NCBI GenBank assembly: GCA_902791885.1
Contig: CADAXO010000088.1
Coordinates: forward strand, 1-7,884
DNA from: Oscillospiraceae bacterium
GTDB taxonomy: Bacteria > Bacillota_A > Clostridia > Saccharofermentanales > Saccharofermentanaceae
DNA length: 7,884 nt
Direction of reading: 5' to 3'
Under the pieces are notes generated by a model. The model did not search any database. It was not told the DNA's origin and was given only the letters and a program-made list of their open reading frames with translations. The position numbers and the translations under genes are program-made. The stretch's first letter is position 1, and each line of letters opens with the position of its first letter. Shown here piece after piece: positions 1 through 7,884 of the stretch.

Positions 1-1379
1 ATCTCGTTAAGATCGTAAGATACTGTCTCTGTCACAACGAAAGCCTCATCCTCACTCTCTCTTAACGAGTAGGTCGTATCCTCGTCGATAAGCTCGACCA
101 TGATCTCGGCGAATCTCGGGTCGAACTGCTTATGTGCACCCGTTATGAATCTTTCCCTTACCTTGCCCTGAGGATAGAGGCCTCTGTATTTCTTGTGGGA
201 AGTCATTGAGTCATAGACGTCAGCGACCTTAACAATCCTCGCATAAAGATGGATATGCTCACCCATTAATCCTTCGGGGTAACCTGTTCCGTCGAAGTTC
301 TCGTGATGCGACTTCGCAGCATAAGGAAGATACGGATAATCGGTGATCGTGGACATTATCTCGGCACCGTATTCTGCGTGCTTTCTGAAAATCTCCTTTT
401 CGATGTCGGAAGCATCGGCACCGCCCTTCTTGATGATGCTGTCAGGGACTCCGATCTTGCCTATGTCGTGAAGGAGAGCCGCATAGTAGACCTCGTAACA
501 AGTCTGCTCGTCGAGGCCCGCGCGCTCCGCGATCATTCTGGAGTAACGTGCTACTCTTACCGAGTGTCCGCGGGAATACTCGTCTCTCGCGTCAACTGCC
601 GTTGCTATCGCTGTAGCAGCCTCGTCAAAGCCGTGCATGATCCTCGTTCTCTCACCCTTAACAAGATCGAGCTCAAGTTTCTTCGCTCTTTCGACCTGAT
701 CGTTCATGTCCTTTAATGCGAAGATATAAAGCACGATGGCTGCACCTACTATCGCGAGGTTGATCAAAGACACTCCGTAAACGTAGTACTGGAATACGGC
801 CGCAGCTATCGGGATAATGAAGAACAGGAACAGCGAGGTCCTGAGCACGTTATTAAGGAGCTTGTAGTTATTGACCATCAAAGAGAGCTGCAAAGCAATG
901 ATAAGGAACGGAACTATATATGAGATTCCGAAGCCGACACCGCGCTGATATATATTGTTGTCATCGAAGTAGTAATAAAGTCCGGTGAACTGCGAGATGA
1001 TGAGAAGCACGAGACCGATAACGACGAGCATCTCGGCGAACCTTAATCTTTCGGGGATCTTCTTAAGACCCATCTCGTTGACGGAGAGATCCGCTATGTA
1101 ACAGTTGACCGCGTGCAGGAACAATATCAGCATCATGAAGACGTTGAAGTTGCAGAACCTCGACATCCAAAGACCCATATCGCTGACATCTCCGCTGTAA
1201 AGATACGACAGTCTGTCGAAGAATACGAGGAAGCCCGCCGACATCTCGATATATATGAGCGCAAACTTCCTTTTCCTCGGCAAAGTCTTGGTAAGGCCTG
1301 CAAGGAGCGCCAGCATAAAGCAGATTGCTGAGAAGCAGAGCATTATATAGGTTTGATATGTCCGAATAAACTCAAGCAT
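1..1379 (-). CDS. Seven-TM membrane HD-GYP phosphodiesterase, 3' end outside window
   Basis: The frame stays open from an ATG at 1379 to the left edge, giving 459 residues without a stop, so the C-terminus is missing. About seven hydrophobic helices (near residues 8-29, 38-57, 76-96, 113-133, 148-170, 180-198 and 203-222) form an integral membrane sensor without a large external loop. A short coiled linker (222-248) leads to an HD-GYP domain (about 250-435). Its hallmarks are all present: GHS with H272, HDIGK (304-308), H334, the pair H358-H359, GTGYPEGL with GYP at 366-368, and D387 in VADVYDS. HD-GYP proteins of this pattern hydrolyse cyclic-di-GMP at a bi- or trinuclear metal site in the cytoplasm; activity here is inferred from the intact motifs. 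An acidic tail follows residue 432. The start lies one base after the hybrid-kinase stop, and its Shine-Dalgarno is inside that gene, so translation is probably coupled. The signal sensed by the membrane part is unknown. Confidence 0.93.
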   Translation of the reverse strand, partial: MLEFIRTYQTYIMLCFSAICFMLALLAGLTKTLPRKRKFALIYIEMSAGFLVFFDRLSYLYSGDVSDMGLWMSRFCNFNVFMMLILFLHAVNCYIADLSVNEMGLKKIPERLRFAEMLVVIGLVLLIISQFTGLYYYFDDNNIYQRGVGFGISYIVPFLIIALQLSLMVNNYKLLNNVLRTSLFLFFIIPIAAAVFQYYVYGVSLINLAIVGAAIVLYIFALKDMNDQVERAKKLELDLVKGERTRIMHGFDEAATAIATAVDARDEYSRGHSVRVARYSRMIAERAGLDEQTCYEVYYAALLHDIGKIGVPDSIIKKGGADASDIEKEIFRKHAEYGAEIMSTITDYPYLPYAAKSHHENFDGTGYPEGLMGEHIHLYARIVKVADVYDSMTSHKKYRGLYPQGKVRERFITGAHKQFDPRFAEIMVELIDEDTTYSLRESEDEAFVVTETVSYDLNE

Positions 1380-1380
1380 A

Positions 1381-4300
1381 TTAATTCCTCGGCTTTAACA
1401 TCATTTCTTCGGGGAGGTTACTCATGATCACGCGCTCGAGCTCCTCGGGATCTGCAGGCTTAACCAGGAAGCCGTTGAAACCTTTGGACTTGAAGTACTC
1501 TTCTCCTCCCTGGGAAGAGTTGGTGATCATGGCATATACCGGAAGATCAGGGTGCGTCTCGCGGATGATCGCGAGCGTCTCCTCACCGTTAAGACCCGGC
1601 ATCTGCTGGTCGAGGAAGACCATGTTATAGTTGCCGTCCTCGAGTTTCTTTATAGCCTCTTCGCCGCTCTTGGCTGGCGTTACGAATATCTTCGTGGGCT
1701 TCAGAAGTTCCTTAATGATCCTCATGTCGGCAGCGTTGTCCTCTACGACAAGGATATCCGCATCGGGAGCGATGAAGTTCGGAACATACTGCTTATCGTA
1801 ATTCTCAGTTTCCTGACCGACGAACTCGCCGATCTCTTCGGCATCAACGATCTTCTGGCTTATCGTCAGAACGAATTCTGTTCCTTCACCGTAGATACTG
1901 TTGCACTCAAGCTTGCCGTTCATAAGTCTTGCGTACTCATAAGAGATATCGAGACCCAAGCCCGAGCCCTTGATGGAGGCTGTATTCTCTTCATCGAAAT
2001 GCTCGAAAGAATTGAATATCTTCTTAACATCCTCTTCCTTGATACCGATACCGGTATCCTGAACGCTCATTCGAAGGTTGACTGTCGCATCGTTCTTGCT
2101 TAAGACGCGCATTACAAGCTTGATACCGCCGTTCTCGGTATAGTCAACGGCATTGGTAAGAAGGTTCGTAACGATCTGCTTGATCTTGTTCCCGTCACCG
2201 TAAAGTCTTACGGGAACCTTAGGATCAACATCGACTTCGAAGTAAAGTCTCTTCTCTTCAGCTCTTGATCTTGTCATCGCGATGGACTGTCTTAAGAGCT
2301 CCTCAGGCACATATTCAAATTCATTAACGGACATCTGTCCGGTCTCGATTCTTGAGATATCGAGAAGGTCGTTAACGAGAGTCAGGAGCGACTCGGAAGC
2401 ATACTTGATATCCTTCGCGTGCTTCTTGACGTTATTCGCGAACTGCTTCGGATCGTCGTCATGAAGTTCCTCTCTTAAGATCATCTCGTCCATTCCGACG
2501 ATGGTATTAAGAGGAGTTCTTATCTCATGGCTCATGTTCGCAAGGAAGCCCGACTTCGCGGCGTTAGCCTTCTGGGCATCATCTCTGGCAGCCTGAAGCT
2601 CGATATACTGCTTTCTTACAACCGTACTTGTCATTACACGCCATACGATGATGCCTGCCGCAGCTACGATCAGAATACCGATCATGATCCTTACAGACCA
2701 AAGTTCGAAGAACTTCGGTGTCTTCGTGATCTTATAAGTTGTTTCAGTCACTACATTACCCGTAGTCTGATCGAGGATCTGAACATGGAGAATATAATCA
2801 CCGTAAGAGATATTCGTATATTCAAGCGATGAAAGCTTGCTCTGTCTTGTCTCGATACCGGGATCATTGGTTCCTTCAAGGTATACGCGGGCCGTAGGAT
2901 TAGACAATGTGTAATCTAGTACTGAAGGAATGATCTGCACACGTCCGTCACCTTCGGGAAGTACATATACACCTTCCTCATTCATATATACGGGCTCATC
3001 ATTCCAATAGATTCCGCGAAGTCCGGTAAGGATCTGCGTTGAACCTGAATAGAAATCATTGATATTAACTCTCGATACACCGGACTGACCTGCGACATAA
3101 AGCGTTCCGTCTTCATCAAGGCAGCTGTGGCAATGAGATACAGGTACACTTGTAAGTCCGTTGAACACATCGTAAAGCCTGTAGTCCTCGATGATGTCAT
3201 TCAACGCATCACTTGCATTCACGACATAGATACCCTGGGATGAGAGCACCCAGAGATTGTTATTATTATCGGTAATTATCTCGAAGTTATTGTTATAAGG
3301 GAAAGTAGATACATTAGTAATAGTACCGTCCCTCAGATACTCGATGGAGTTGGAAGTGACGATCCAGTAAAGGCTTCTTTCATTGTCCTTCTTGATTCTC
3401 ATTATTACTTCACTGGTAAGACCGTCAACCGAACCCATCTGTCTTACGCCGTCTTCATTAATGATATAGATTCCGCCGCCGTCAGTACCTGCAAGGATAG
3501 ATCCGTTATCGCCTTCACAGACCGTGAGGATTACAGTATTATCGATGCCTGCAGAATGACCGTATGTCTTAACGATCTCCAAGTCTCTTATTACTGCGAC
3601 ACCGTCATTGGTCGCCGCGACGATCGATCCGTCGCTCATCTCACAGGTGCTTCTGACTTCATTATTCGGCATACCGTTGACTGAGTTGAACGAGATGATC
3701 TCACCGTCTTTGGTAAGACATACAAGGCCCAATCCGTCGGTAAATGTCGAGAACCAGAGGTTGCCCGAACTGTCGCGCTCGATATCTCTGATTCTTACGC
3801 CGTCAAGGTAGTTCGTCATTGTATCGGTGATAAGCTCACCGTTTCCGCTGATGATCTGAAGACCGCGGTCTGTTCCGATATAGAGGTTGCCGTCATCAAG
3901 ACAAGTAGCATTAACGACCTCATCCGGAATACCCGCTACCAATGTGTAGTTCAGGAAGTTATTTGATGTGATCTTCATGACGCCGAATCTTGCCGACGCG
4001 AACCACATATTGCCCTGATAATCCGATGTGATCATCTCGAATGAATCGGTTACGGGAACATTCTCAAGTTCAACATACTCATTGTTCTCATCAAGGTAAC
4101 CTGCGGAATTACCGGTCGCGAGCCACAGCCTGTCGCATCCGTAATACATACAGTTGATATTGTCTGCCGCACCCGTATCGATCTTGGTGAGGTTAGAAGA
4201 ACCGTCGCCAAAGGCTCCGTAATATACGGCATTGACTGATGTACCGTAATAAAGGACACCGGGAACTTCGGGATCTGCGATAATGCAGTTGATCTTGGCT

Positions 4301-4992
4301 ATACCTATGTCTCCGCTGGTATAGAAATCCATGATGCCGCCTTCTGATACGGAGAAAACCTCACCGCTCTTCGTAAGGCCGTAGACATTGCCTTCGACAT
4401 CCGATACGAGATTGACGATCCTTTCCTGATTGATCCTGTCATCGTTGATCGGATAGACATTCATATCCGATCCTATCCATGCCATACCGGAAGATGTACC
4501 GACATAAATAGTACCGTTATTATCCTGGGCAAACGCTCTGATCGAAGATGAAGGCAACCCGTCGCCCTTCGTATAATGCCTGCTTGAAGAACCGTCCATT
4601 ACGACCGCACCGTTATCATTCGTGGCAACCCAGATCCTTCCCTGTCTGTCCTCGAAAATCGCTCTTCCGCTCGTAAGTCCGTCAACAGAAGTTATTCTCT
4701 CGAATTCATTGCCGTCGAATCTTATGATTCCGCTGTAACCGCCGATCCAGATATATCCGTCTCTTGCAGCGAGAACACAGTTAGCCTCAGATGTAGGAAG
4801 TCCGTTCGTCGCGTCGTAAAGGCTCGCCGAATAACCGACACCCGGGATCTGTCCGGTTACCGCATATCCGCCTCCGGTCATGTCGTAACCGTCCTCGTTT
4901 ACATTCGCGAACGATACAGCTGACATCCCTGCGATACACAGGGAAAGGATGATCATCGTTATACATGCTTTTATGCCGTAACGCTTCATCAT
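1381..4992 (-). CDS. Hybrid histidine kinase: two-propeller sensor, Y_Y_Y, HisKA, HATPase, receiver
   Basis: This 1203-residue sensor kinase starts with a signal peptide or anchor (hydrophobic 9-28, possible cleavage after SFA near 29). Residues 60-650 carry 14 repeats of the Reg_prop type (D-x-x-G-x-[LI]-[WY]-x-[GA]-T-x-x-G), which fits two seven-bladed propellers. A Y_Y_Y domain (about 683-757), one membrane helix (766-787) and a coiled segment (790-812) follow; I see no HAMP or PAS. The kinase core has the H-box SHEIRTPLN with phospho-acceptor H822, the N-box near 943-950, G1 DTGIGI (979-984), an F-box (FEHF) and G2 GSGLGL (1009-1014). The C-terminal receiver (about 1078-1195) has E1084/D1085, phospho-acceptor D1128 in LDQQMPG, T1157 and K1178. 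The extracellular half matches Bacteroides hybrid two-component sensors (HTCS), which sense glycan fragments, but the C-terminal AraC-type DNA-binding domain of HTCS is absent. The ligand and the phosphorelay partner are unknown. The second Met (4989) may be the true start, because it is better spaced from GGAGG. Confidence 0.95.
1385..1391 (-). promoter_or_regulatory. Shine-Dalgarno of the second HD-GYP gene inside the kinase gene
   Basis: GAGGAA on the minus strand overlaps the last sense codons of the hybrid kinase (Pro-Arg-Asn). It is followed by the TAA stop, one T and the ATG at 1379. This spacing suits initiation at 1379 and supports translational coupling. Confidence 0.75.
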
Positions 4993-7160
4993 TCCTCCTT
5001 AAACTTGTTCATGATCTTAACGACTTCATCGATAGATTCCATGAACACTTCGACAACCTTGGGATCGAACTGGGTACCCGCACCCTCCTGAATGATGGAC
5101 AGAGCCTTTTCGAGCGGGAACGGGGGCTTATAGATACGGGGCGAGACGAGAGCATCGAACACGTCCGCAACGGACATGACACGTGCCGACAGCGGTATAA
5201 CTTCGCCGTGAAGTCCTTCGGGATAACCCTTACCGTCCCAGCGCTCGTGGTGGTAACCTGCCATGTTGCGGGCTTCCTTGAGATATACGTCACCTTCTAC
5301 CTTGGAGATGGCACTCTCGATGATCTTTCTTCCCGCGGTGGTATGTGTCTTCATTATCGCGAACTCTTCGTCCGTGAGCTTGCCGGGCTTGTTAAGTACG
5401 GCATCGGGCACGTTGATCTTACCGATATCGTGCAAAGGAGCACTGAGTTCGACGTCACTCATATATTTGTCGGTGAGCTTCTCCGTGTAGTATCCGTTAC
5501 GCTTCAGGCCCTCAAGGATGATCCTTACATACGCCGCCGTCTTCTGAACATGCGCACCGGTATCGGAGTCTCTGGACTCGACCATATCGGCCATCGTTAC
5601 GATAAGGCCGTTCTGCATCTTCGAGATCTCTTCAGACTTGTTCCTGATATCCGTAGTCTGTGCTACGGTATCGCTCGTCATCTTGCAGATAGCCTTGTAC
5701 AGAAGCTCAAGCTCGTCGCCCGTATGGATATCGAGGCTCTCTATCTTCTTAAGCTTCAGCGTGTACTCCTCGTCGTCCATGAAAGCAACTTCATCCGTAA
5801 AGCGCGTCATTGCGGCGATAGGCATCAGGATATAGTACCTTGCGATCCACACACCCGCTACAACAATGAGTATGAAGAAGCCTGCGAAAAGGAGTATTAC
5901 GCGGCCTATAAAATCAGTGGTGTTCTCGCTTATGATCGAACACTTGATGTTAGAGATAACATAGCAGGCGAGATTGCCGTCCTTATCAAACAAAGGCTGA
6001 TAATGCATCAGGTATTCGCCGTATTCGTCATGTACTTCAAGAGTCGGAATCTCTTCTCCCGCGAGGAGCTGATTCTTATAGTTAACGAATTCAACCTCAT
6101 AATCTATGAGAGCACCCGGCTGAACACCCGGAACGAATGTACCGTCGGGAAGCGTCGCATCAAGATCGAATACGACTCTGCATCCGCTCGCCTCAGGTCT
6201 GTATACATAGAGGAACTGGATATCATCCGAACTGTTCATGATCGAATAAAGCTTGTCCCTGACCTCCGCATATCCTTCAGCCTGGAAACCGTATCTTACA
6301 TACCGGTCGACCATCTCGGGATCGATCTCATTAGCTGCTAACTTCGCGATCTGCTCTGCATTCGCTGCGATCCTCTCGCGTGTCTTATCCTGATAGTTGA
6401 CCAGTGAGAATACCGTAACGATCACAGCCATAAGAACACTCGATACCACAACAAGAAGCATCGTTCTTTTGCCGATGGATAATCTTCCCCTGATACCGGA
6501 TATTACTTTTCTTTGTTCGCTCTGACTGATCCTCTTGTGTCTCCAGCCCGATACCATCAGGGTCTGCTTAAACTTCTCAGGCAAAGTAGTTATTATGAGG
6601 AACGACAGAACGACAGATATGGTCTTATCTATGAAATCCGTAAAGAAAGTAGACACTACATGGCAGCCGAACTCGCCCATACCGAACGTACTGTGCAGCC
6701 ATGTCATAATGCTGACGATCATCGGTGAATCGGACGGTTCGCCGTACAGGAACCATGTGATGACAGATCCGATACCTCCGCCGATGAATGCAATGACCAG
6801 AACAAACAGGAACTTGCCCCTGAACGTCTTTATAAACTTACTTTCGAAGAACATAGTGGTCGCGAGAGCTATCAGCATGCTGAGTGACGCATAGAAGATA
6901 GACTCTCCGTCCATTACGAAGTTGATCGCATTGGTGCAAAGGGCAGTCAGGATGCCCGGGATGACACCGCCCAATGCCGTTACTACGATCGTTCCGACCG
7001 TGTCGATGTAAAAAGGAAGATTGGTGGGTCTTACGATAGCCGAGAGAATGAAATTAAGCGCAATACCGCAGATGATAAGAATCCAAACGCGGGGACGCAT
7101 GAATCCCCTTTCTCTGGATGACCATTTAAAGGCCTTTCTACCGGTCTTAATCTCTTCCAC
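4989..7160 (-). CDS. Membrane HD-GYP phosphodiesterase with ECF-S-like, Cache-like and HAMP domains
   Basis: This 723-residue protein is read from a GTG at 7160, the first possible start after an in-frame TAA. Residues 21-195 form about six hydrophobic helices with conserved-looking [11 protein letters not shown] and ALGGVIPGI motifs, resembling the S-component fold of ECF vitamin transporters as used as a membrane sensor in clostridial signalling proteins. A seventh helix (232-254), an extracytoplasmic segment of about 160 residues (255-417) with Cache-like features (YVYRPE, then [11 protein letters not shown]) and a helix (418-440) follow. A HAMP-like linker (about 441-497, with GDELELL) leads to the HD-GYP domain (about 520-715). 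Metal-site and signature residues look complete: H537, HDIGK (577-581), H606, H637-H638, GYP (645-647) and D666 in VADVFDAL. The likely role is cyclic-di-GMP hydrolysis in the cytoplasm under control of an external small molecule. It is the first gene of the three-gene operon, and its TGA stop overlaps the hybrid-kinase start. ATG21 (7100) is an alternative start. Confidence 0.93.
4994..5001 (-). promoter_or_regulatory. Shine-Dalgarno of the hybrid kinase inside the end of the HD-GYP gene
   Basis: AAGGAGG is read on the minus strand within the last codons (Lys-Glu-Glu) of the upstream gene. It ends 1 base before the first ATG (4992) and 4 bases before the second ATG (4989), favouring the second. 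The upstream stop TGA (4991-4989) shares bases with both starts, which is the usual arrangement for stop-restart translational coupling. Confidence 0.75.
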
Positions 7161-7280: not shown

Positions 7281-7318
7281 CCCATACTATTTTTGATTTT
7301 TTTAAGATTTAGTATGGG
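7281..7318. repeat. Dyad unit 1 of the array
   Basis: Arms CCCATACTA (7281-7289) and TAGTATGGG (7310-7318) are perfect reverse complements of 9 bases around a 20-base T-rich loop. This is the unit nearest the HD-GYP gene and the one with the longest perfect pairing. Confidence 0.85.
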
Positions 7319-7339
7319 AATGGGAATTTGGTCAAATCT

Positions 7340-7373
7340 CATACTATTTGCCGTTTTTTCTCAATATAGTATG
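7340..7373. repeat. Dyad unit 2 of the array
   Basis: Arms CATACTAT (7340-7347) and ATAGTATG (7366-7373) are perfect 8-base reverse complements with an 18-base loop containing six T in a row. Confidence 0.85.
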
Positions 7374-7391
7374 GAAATGAAGGTCAAATCT

Positions 7392-7425
7392 CATACCATA
7401 TATGAATTTTTCCCGATATAGTATG
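7392..7425. repeat. Dyad unit 3 of the array
   Basis: Arms CATACCATAT (7392-7401) and ATATAGTATG (7416-7425) pair over 10 positions with one mismatch. The loop is 14 bases and includes five T. Confidence 0.82.
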
Positions 7426-7440
7426 GAAATCAGGGCATTT

Positions 7441-7480
7441 GTCCATACTATATTTCGATTTTTGGGAAAATGGTATGGAC
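7441..7480. repeat. Dyad unit 4 of the array
   Basis: Arms GTCCATACTA (7441-7450) and TGGTATGGAC (7471-7480) pair over 10 positions with one T:G position that would wobble-pair in RNA. The loop is 20 bases. Flanks on the right side leave the repeat consensus. Confidence 0.82.
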
Positions 7481-7545: not shown

Positions 7546-7884
7546 TCAGAAACAGTACTCATAATCCGCCACAGCCTCGGCAAATGCACGGTCATGTTCG
7601 ACGAATAACATTGTTACACTGCTTTGTTTTACAAGCCTTTCGATCTCTTTTCTCATATAGACATCGATGTAGTTCAGCGGCTCATCCCAGAGGTAGACAT
7701 CTGCCTTTTCGCACAGTGAGAGAGCCAGCATGACGAACTTTTTCTGTCCCAAGGACAGCGCGTCAACGTTCCTGTACAGCATGTCGCCGGTGAAGCCCAT
7801 CTTGACCAGGATCGTGGAGAACTGAGTTCTGTCGGCGCCCCTGTCAGCGCAGATGTCGTACAAAGAGCCCTTAAGAGAAGACGT
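7546..7884 (-). CDS. ABC-F family ATPase, C-terminal fragment (5' end outside window)
   Basis: The frame is open from the right edge to a TGA at 7546-7548, giving the last 112 residues of what is normally a protein of about 500 residues. The fragment covers the second nucleotide-binding domain: a signature motif written LSLGQKK, a Walker B with catalytic glutamate in VYLWDEPLNYIDV, and an H-loop in MLFVEHD. The DEPLNYID string and the LSxGQKK spelling resemble Lsa/Vga-like ABC-F proteins, many of which act on the ribosome in the cytoplasm and release lincosamide, streptogramin A or pleuromutilin antibiotics. Housekeeping ABC-F translation factors are the alternative, and the missing first domain and interdomain linker prevent a choice. 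There is no membrane segment, as expected for ABC-F. A long intergenic region separates it from the signalling operon on the same strand, so it is probably a separate transcription unit. A TTG at 7863 is just an internal Leu codon; the frame continues upstream of it. Confidence 0.88.
   Translation of the reverse strand, partial: TSSLKGSLYDICADRGADRTQFSTILVKMGFTGDMLYRNVDALSLGQKKFVMLALSLCEKADVYLWDEPLNYIDVYMRKEIERLVKQSSVTMLFVEHDRAFAEAVADYEYCF

Follow-up and report, generated by a model that had tools for sequence, protein, structure and literature searches.

The stretch of DNA analyzed here, called the window, is 7,884 nt of contig CADAXO010000088.1 (assembly GCA_902791885.1, Oscillospiraceae bacterium), most of it taken up by three minus-strand genes: an HD-GYP protein (A), a hybrid histidine kinase (K), and a second HD-GYP protein (B). 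In reading direction the order is the end of an ABC-F gene, a non-coding stretch of about 385 bases that holds a repeat array, A, K, and B. An initial annotation, made from the sequence alone, had described two HD-GYP genes flanking a large hybrid kinase in a single run; the open reading frames (ORFs) and the Pfam domains (HD_5/HD in A and B; Reg_prop, HisKA, HATPase_c, and Response_reg in K) agree with it. The three genes and their parts are as follows.

4989..7160, minus strand: HD-GYP A, ORF of 723 amino acids with a GTG start and an alternative ATG 20 codons in
6555..7109, minus strand: A residues 18-202, membrane domain resembling the S-component of energy-coupling factor (ECF) transporters (structure model)
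5907..6398, minus strand: A residues 255-418, Cache/PAS-like sensor, extracellular, with a membrane helix on each side
4995..5639, minus strand: A residues 508-722, HD-GYP domain of D-T-G type, predicted trinuclear metal site
4989..4992, minus strand: A/K junction
1381..4992, minus strand: hybrid histidine kinase K, ORF of 1203 amino acids
3043..4821, minus strand: K residues ~58-650, Reg_prop beta-propeller region, probably two propellers
1855..2559, minus strand: K residues 812-1046, HisKA and HATPase_c, phosphoacceptor His822
1429..1755, minus strand: K residues 1080-1188, receiver with Asp1128 and Lys1178 intact and Ile1156 in place of the switch Thr
3..1379, minus strand: HD-GYP B, first 459 residues; ORF open past the window edge, no stop inside
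690..1379, minus strand: B residues 1-230, multi-helix membrane sensor of seven-transmembrane (7TM) type (from the model of its relative P0241, structural matches to P0241 residues 1-217, and hydropathy)
105..602, minus strand: B residues 260-425, HD-GYP domain of Y/F type, predicted binuclear site, all seven ligands

The junctions are as tight as first described, with a 4- or 1-base overlap, a 1-base gap, and Shine-Dalgarno sites. At A/K, AAGGAGGAATGATG gives an overlap of four bases (ATGA) or, if K starts at the second ATG, of one (TGATG), with AGGAGG just upstream; a single base separates the TAA of K from the ATG of B, with GAGG upstream of B. This spacing suggests that A, K, and B are co-transcribed. 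About 335 final residues of B fall beyond the window.

The arrangement recurs widely. In protein searches with about 8000 candidates scored for A and as many for K, 161 A-like and 1218 K-like sequences passed E 1e-20, the top 120 of either kind being listed; a scan of genome contigs with 39 aligned A proteins gave at least 80 loci, mostly Lachnospiraceae metagenome-assembled genomes labelled as from rumen and gut. A cut-off of at least 67% identity to the HD domain of the window's A, set after inspection of the table, reduced the 80 scanned loci to 26, with 27 A genes; in the 54 excluded, the first 1 kb downstream of A holds no kinase with a propeller. Twenty extra stretches were picked by hand, their neighbors mostly already visible, and are not a blind sample. 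With duplicates dropped (L126 and one A of L137), 46 non-window A genes remain, some from the same genome (L001 and L138; L018 and L137).

A kinase lies directly downstream of A at 42 of these 46 loci (24/27 in the unselected genome scan); L123, one of the hand-picked stretches, has none. Thirty-nine of the kinases have a propeller and three (L050, L058, L139) do not, and in all 41 A-K pairs counted, one of them a duplicate, the genes overlap or are separated by at most 50 bases. B is present at 33 of the 40 loci that could be judged (L060 and L139 end too early), in the same direction in 32 and divergent in one; the figure for the genome scan alone is 17/23. Kinase-bearing loci include Ruminococcus albus 8, Agathobacter ruminis, Butyrivibrio, Saccharofermentans, and Treponema; L016, from Butyrivibrio sp. 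YAB3001, has the operon. In the window's own clade, the A, K, and B relatives P0007, P0125, and P0244 share a longest-contig value of 95,473, and P0122 and P0241 one of 17,062, an indirect sign that they lie together. The layout is thus confirmed as beyond chance, with the same tight order in dozens of loci; with a kinase downstream of A so regularly, the triplet can be rejected as a one-strain curiosity, and the coupled signaling operon first proposed is upheld, as a conserved one. Matches to A at E 1e-215 were limited to G001 among 392 genomes of the order and 391 of the class, at most two best candidates being scored per genome, and a scan of viral contigs gave no match.

A has an HD_5 match of 123 bits. 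Its model combines an ECF S-component-like fold, a Cache domain, and an HD-GYP domain in one chain, and structural comparison places residues 18-202 in the S-component fold. Eleven HD-GYP residues were scored (seven metal ligands, the catalytic Lys, and Gly-Tyr-Pro), their roles taken from excerpts of PMC4159591. All 11 are kept in the window's A and likewise in its B, so that two full-motif HD-GYP proteins, as originally claimed, do lie there. In A the 11 residues are invariant, partly by selection, in 121/121 proteins and 80/80 locus ORFs (overlapping sets; 201/201 sequences). The protein search used words from residues 1-500, before the HD domain, and is free of motif selection. A would be the committed phosphodiesterase of the operon. 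The substrate of A and B is likely cyclic di-GMP (c-di-GMP), since GGDEF matches are abundant in the genomes of relatives (16-41 per genome in 10/10).

The claim of two full motifs does not carry over to B elsewhere: among 30 distinct ORFs from operon copies, window excluded, 25 have lost two to six of the seven ligands and five are intact. (Thirty-one ORFs were scored, L137_492 repeating that of L018; the short or truncated B of L001, L015, L040, and L135 are unscored.) According to excerpts of PMC4159591, alanine at any of the seven ligands except Asp305 essentially abolished the activity of PmGH; by analogy, most operon copies of B elsewhere should be inactive. Among the full-length B proteins nearest the window's, 103 with itself included, 97 have all seven ligands, in a list that covers proteins irrespective of gene context and is biased toward intact copies, the query being intact. 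The closest full-length relative, P0241 (794 amino acids, 81% identical), is modeled with two putative galectin-like domains (beta-sandwiches of galectin/ConA type) at its C-terminus, which would be cytoplasmic in the reading proposed below. A tree of B built without the motif columns has at least three changes of catalytic state, two of them forced by supported branches: degenerate copies make up a clade of 27 rows with weak support, and recur in L018/L120/P0248, which lie closer to the window, as well as in P0313. B may be an enzyme in some operons and is probably a regulator in others. By the subgroup scheme in excerpts of PMC4159591, the window's A is E/D-T-G and its B is Y/F; recent tandem duplication of one into the other is rejected on this ground. 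Two loci show further variation. In L120 the A-K pair lies between two B genes, the upstream one with all scored ligands and the downstream one degenerate; at L061 (15991-18489) the B membrane domain is apparently fused to a second kinase core, receiver, and HPt in place of HD-GYP, with a receiver protein of the kind described next (R) following it.

For K, two propellers were proposed at the outset, and Reg_prop matches, blade-like motifs often about 42 residues apart, and matches to the propeller sensors in PDB entries 3v9f, 4a2l, and 3ott all point the same way. A glycan as its signal is no more than a possibility raised by this resemblance of fold. The chain ends 15 residues past the receiver, with no HPt domain, and in the kinase tree it groups with 17 relatives, all HPt-less (97% by the Shimodaira-Hasegawa-like approximate likelihood ratio test).

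The unseen HPt relay suggested in the initial annotation exists in part, in relatives more distant than these: most have a K of about 1400 residues with HPt at the end (for L003, 25.6 bits against a cut-off of 24.6), usually with an adjacent R, a 250-residue protein in which a receiver follows a region without a Pfam match. By the length of the tail past the receiver, K carries HPt at 34 of 39 other loci. R is adjacent at 29 of the 34 HPt-bearing loci vs. none of the six HPt-less ones, window included (Fisher p 1.2e-4, kinship ignored; 29/5 vs. 0/5 minus the window, p 4.4e-4). This count omits L010 and L060, which are at contig ends, and L132, where K was not recovered as one ORF, HPt and R both being present there by tblastn. 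In L012, L014, and L137 the tail is about 140 residues rather than the usual ~212, and an adjacent R is also lacking. The HPt label changes at least nine times on the kinase tree, with four changes forced by supported branches, and L010 wrongly scored as HPt-less there, its contig ending early. R has no fixed position, preceding A in L001 and L018 and following B in L128, but it remains with the operon. A link between HPt loss and the catalytic state of B was also considered and rejected, the combinations being mixed: B is degenerate in HPt-less L017, L050, and L058, intact in the HPt-less window, and intact in HPt-bearing L009, L124, and L136.

R is not peculiar to the operon. Of seven stretches with R outside the operons first seen, five have it beside an HPt-ended kinase (L160, L161, L162, L164, L165), for which reason HPt and R look like general partners; L163 and L166 have no adjoining kinase of this type, and L161 proved to be a second A-containing operon. 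The genomes of L012 and L017 have no R at E 1e-25. The window shows none over the 724 bases that precede A, nor any between K and B; genes past B, where R could still lie as in L128, are outside it. With HPt absent from K throughout the clade and R not seen, a relay within the window operon cannot be assumed, and this part of the original suggestion is not supported in that form. As a separate observation, R at L009 (7191-7952) aligns almost end to end with positions 1-239 of CbrR (40.6 bits vs. a cut-off of 600), as if it were a tandem receiver without the output domain.

The surroundings of the operon are variable, with no Pfam family occurring more than four times among 93 flanking proteins (EAL and GGDEF twice each). 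Constant neighbors are accordingly rejected as a functional clue, and their absence suggests a self-contained module. At L002 (15793-18489) an HPt-less K stands directly before what appear by eye to be a DegT-type aminotransferase and a sugar transferase; DegT accounts for three of the 93 neighbors, and the L002 context hints at surface polysaccharide. In the window itself, the flank upstream of A in reading direction holds:

7546..7884: ABC-F ATPase, C-terminal part
7283-7479: repeat array, between the ABC-F gene and A

The best NCBIfam match of the ABC-F fragment, to the Lsa family, reaches 112 bits vs. a cut-off of 750, too few to establish the family. In the array a 36-base unit with inverted ends (CATACTAT...ATAGTATGG) is repeated to give four copies, spaced 52-57 bases apart. 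It has five CCATACTATA-like sites where 0.41 are expected, and the region folds better than shuffled versions (z -2.95). An Rfam scan of the window gave no match.

The reading that we prefer, with about even confidence, is that the window carries a reduced version, with two active enzymes, of a conserved gut and rumen operon through which several signals bring c-di-GMP down. A would take its input through the S-component-like membrane domain and the Cache domain; B would be a second HD-GYP protein with a 7TM sensor, bearing in its close relatives the two cytoplasmic galectin-like domains. In most operon copies B is probably not an enzyme, and would most likely regulate A or another partner by contact. 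The propellers of K would detect an extracellular ligand. In the fuller operons, phosphate may pass from the His of K to its receiver, on to HPt, to R, and so to the HD-GYP proteins, in that presumed order. In the window clade the receiver of K would be the last visible step, acting by contact or through an unlinked partner, and the relay of the relatives would be impossible unless HPt and R are encoded elsewhere. In either case K may control A or B.

Several points weigh against this reading. It is built from sequence and models, in which interaction, co-transcription, and activity are predictions. The invariance of A is in part a product of selection, as one of the two patterns used in the genome scan, APLHD[VI]GK, spans three of the scored residues and the loci were also cut by HD-domain identity; and an eighth ligand position, Asp533, is Asp in only 129/201 sequences, with Cys or Asn in 54 of the 72 others. 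The association of HPt with R comes down to two independent pairs on supported branches (median p 0.5). L002, L006, L120, and L133 have no adjacent R, with one at 54-61% identity elsewhere in the genome.

Other unfavorable points count in favor of an alternative, possible if on the whole doubtful, in which the three receptors are merely co-expressed, A and B acting through their own sensors and K on an unlinked DNA-binding regulator. Pfam finds no Response_reg match in A, in the window part of B, or in four full-length B proteins (L003, L009, P0241, P0244), unlike RpfG, discussed below; L160 has K-HPt-R without A or B, so that the components can function separately; of 12 genomes searched, 10 hold R-like proteins, and R may thus serve many kinases; and B is missing at seven of the 40 loci (L002, L006, L007, L008, L056, L061, L138). 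The linkage of A to K at 42/46 loci with gaps of at most 50 bases nevertheless suggests a shared task, and Pfam shows no DNA-binding domain in either R protein of the two scanned.

A more elaborate proposal, which we consider unlikely, makes the operon a new c-di-GMP control unit in which a nutrient receptor derived from an S-component directly drives HD-GYP A, and the lectin-like B is an allosteric switch setting its activity. In this proposal B would have turned from enzyme to switch, apparently more than once, and as a switch would read the propeller-kinase relay, and the window clade would keep the state with two active enzymes, with a shortened relay. Least convincing, and in our view quite improbable, is decay or rewiring of K in the window clade, the relay having ended and A and B running the operon alone. 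The loss of HPt from 17/17 clade relatives in the tree, the R not seen in the window, and the altered switch residue would fit: Ile has replaced Thr in 9 of the 19 rows of the clade (the window and P0121, which is identical to it, being separate rows), and 101 of 102 other kinases have Thr. Against it, His822, the N, D, and G2 boxes, Asp1128, and Lys1178 are conserved in all 19, and the ORFs of the relatives are full-length, with about 1200 residues and 59-81% identity, which points to continued selection. In CheY, the matching change of the switch residue uncouples phosphorylation from activation.

With catalytic residues of B lost in most copies elsewhere, the loci offer a natural experiment on the control of c-di-GMP by sensor kinases and dead enzymes. 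A link between kinases and c-di-GMP enzymes is often taken for granted from adjacency. Here nature has varied the pieces singly (HPt, R, the catalytic state of B, the propeller) with the catalytic residues of A fixed, so that a few species give ready comparisons of the role of each.

No description of an A-K-B operon was found in a search of full-text literature (subscription papers outside its scope), and as far as that search reached, the operon appears to be undescribed. Its parts have relatives in known systems. The propeller sensors 3v9f, 4a2l, and 3ott we take to belong to hybrid two-component systems of Bacteroides type, which resemble K in having a propeller, a kinase core (HisKA and HATPase_c) preceded by a single transmembrane helix, and a receiver. 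Those systems have a C-terminal DNA-binding domain on the same chain; Pfam finds none past the receiver of K, and most relatives have HPt instead. A His-Asp-His-Asp phosphorelay with HPt on the kinase is likewise absent from the window and 17/17 clade relatives. Among HD-GYP enzymes, PA4781 (4r8z) and PmGH (4mcw) differ from A and B in their sensor parts. The ECF S-components RibU and ThiT share the fold of A residues 18-202, but in A it is fused to a signaling enzyme, and no transporter partner genes were found among the window ORFs; as far as the searches reach, a vitamin-transporter fold as sensor on a c-di-GMP enzyme would be a new type of input.

RpfC/RpfG pairs a hybrid kinase with a REC-HD-GYP protein, and is similar in that the kinase adjoins the HD-GYP enzyme; RpfG has its own receiver, and A and B have none. 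(RpfG is among the proteins discussed in excerpts of PMC4159591.) The Hno system of Shewanella, as presented in excerpts of PMC6335343 and PMC8846402, comprises HnoK/HnoS, HnoB, and the degenerate HD-GYP protein HnoD, which inhibits the phosphodiesterase HnoB through direct interaction with it until kinase inputs relieve this. By these excerpts HnoD is a precedent for a degenerate B acting on a partner by contact, and both systems have a kinase pathway, one active phosphodiesterase, and one degenerate HD-GYP protein. They differ in that HnoD and HnoB are described as response regulators and A and B are membrane receptors without a receiver, and in that the active Hno enzyme is of EAL type, where here it is HD-GYP, with B intact in the window. 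Set beside these systems, the operon appears as known signaling parts in a new combination.

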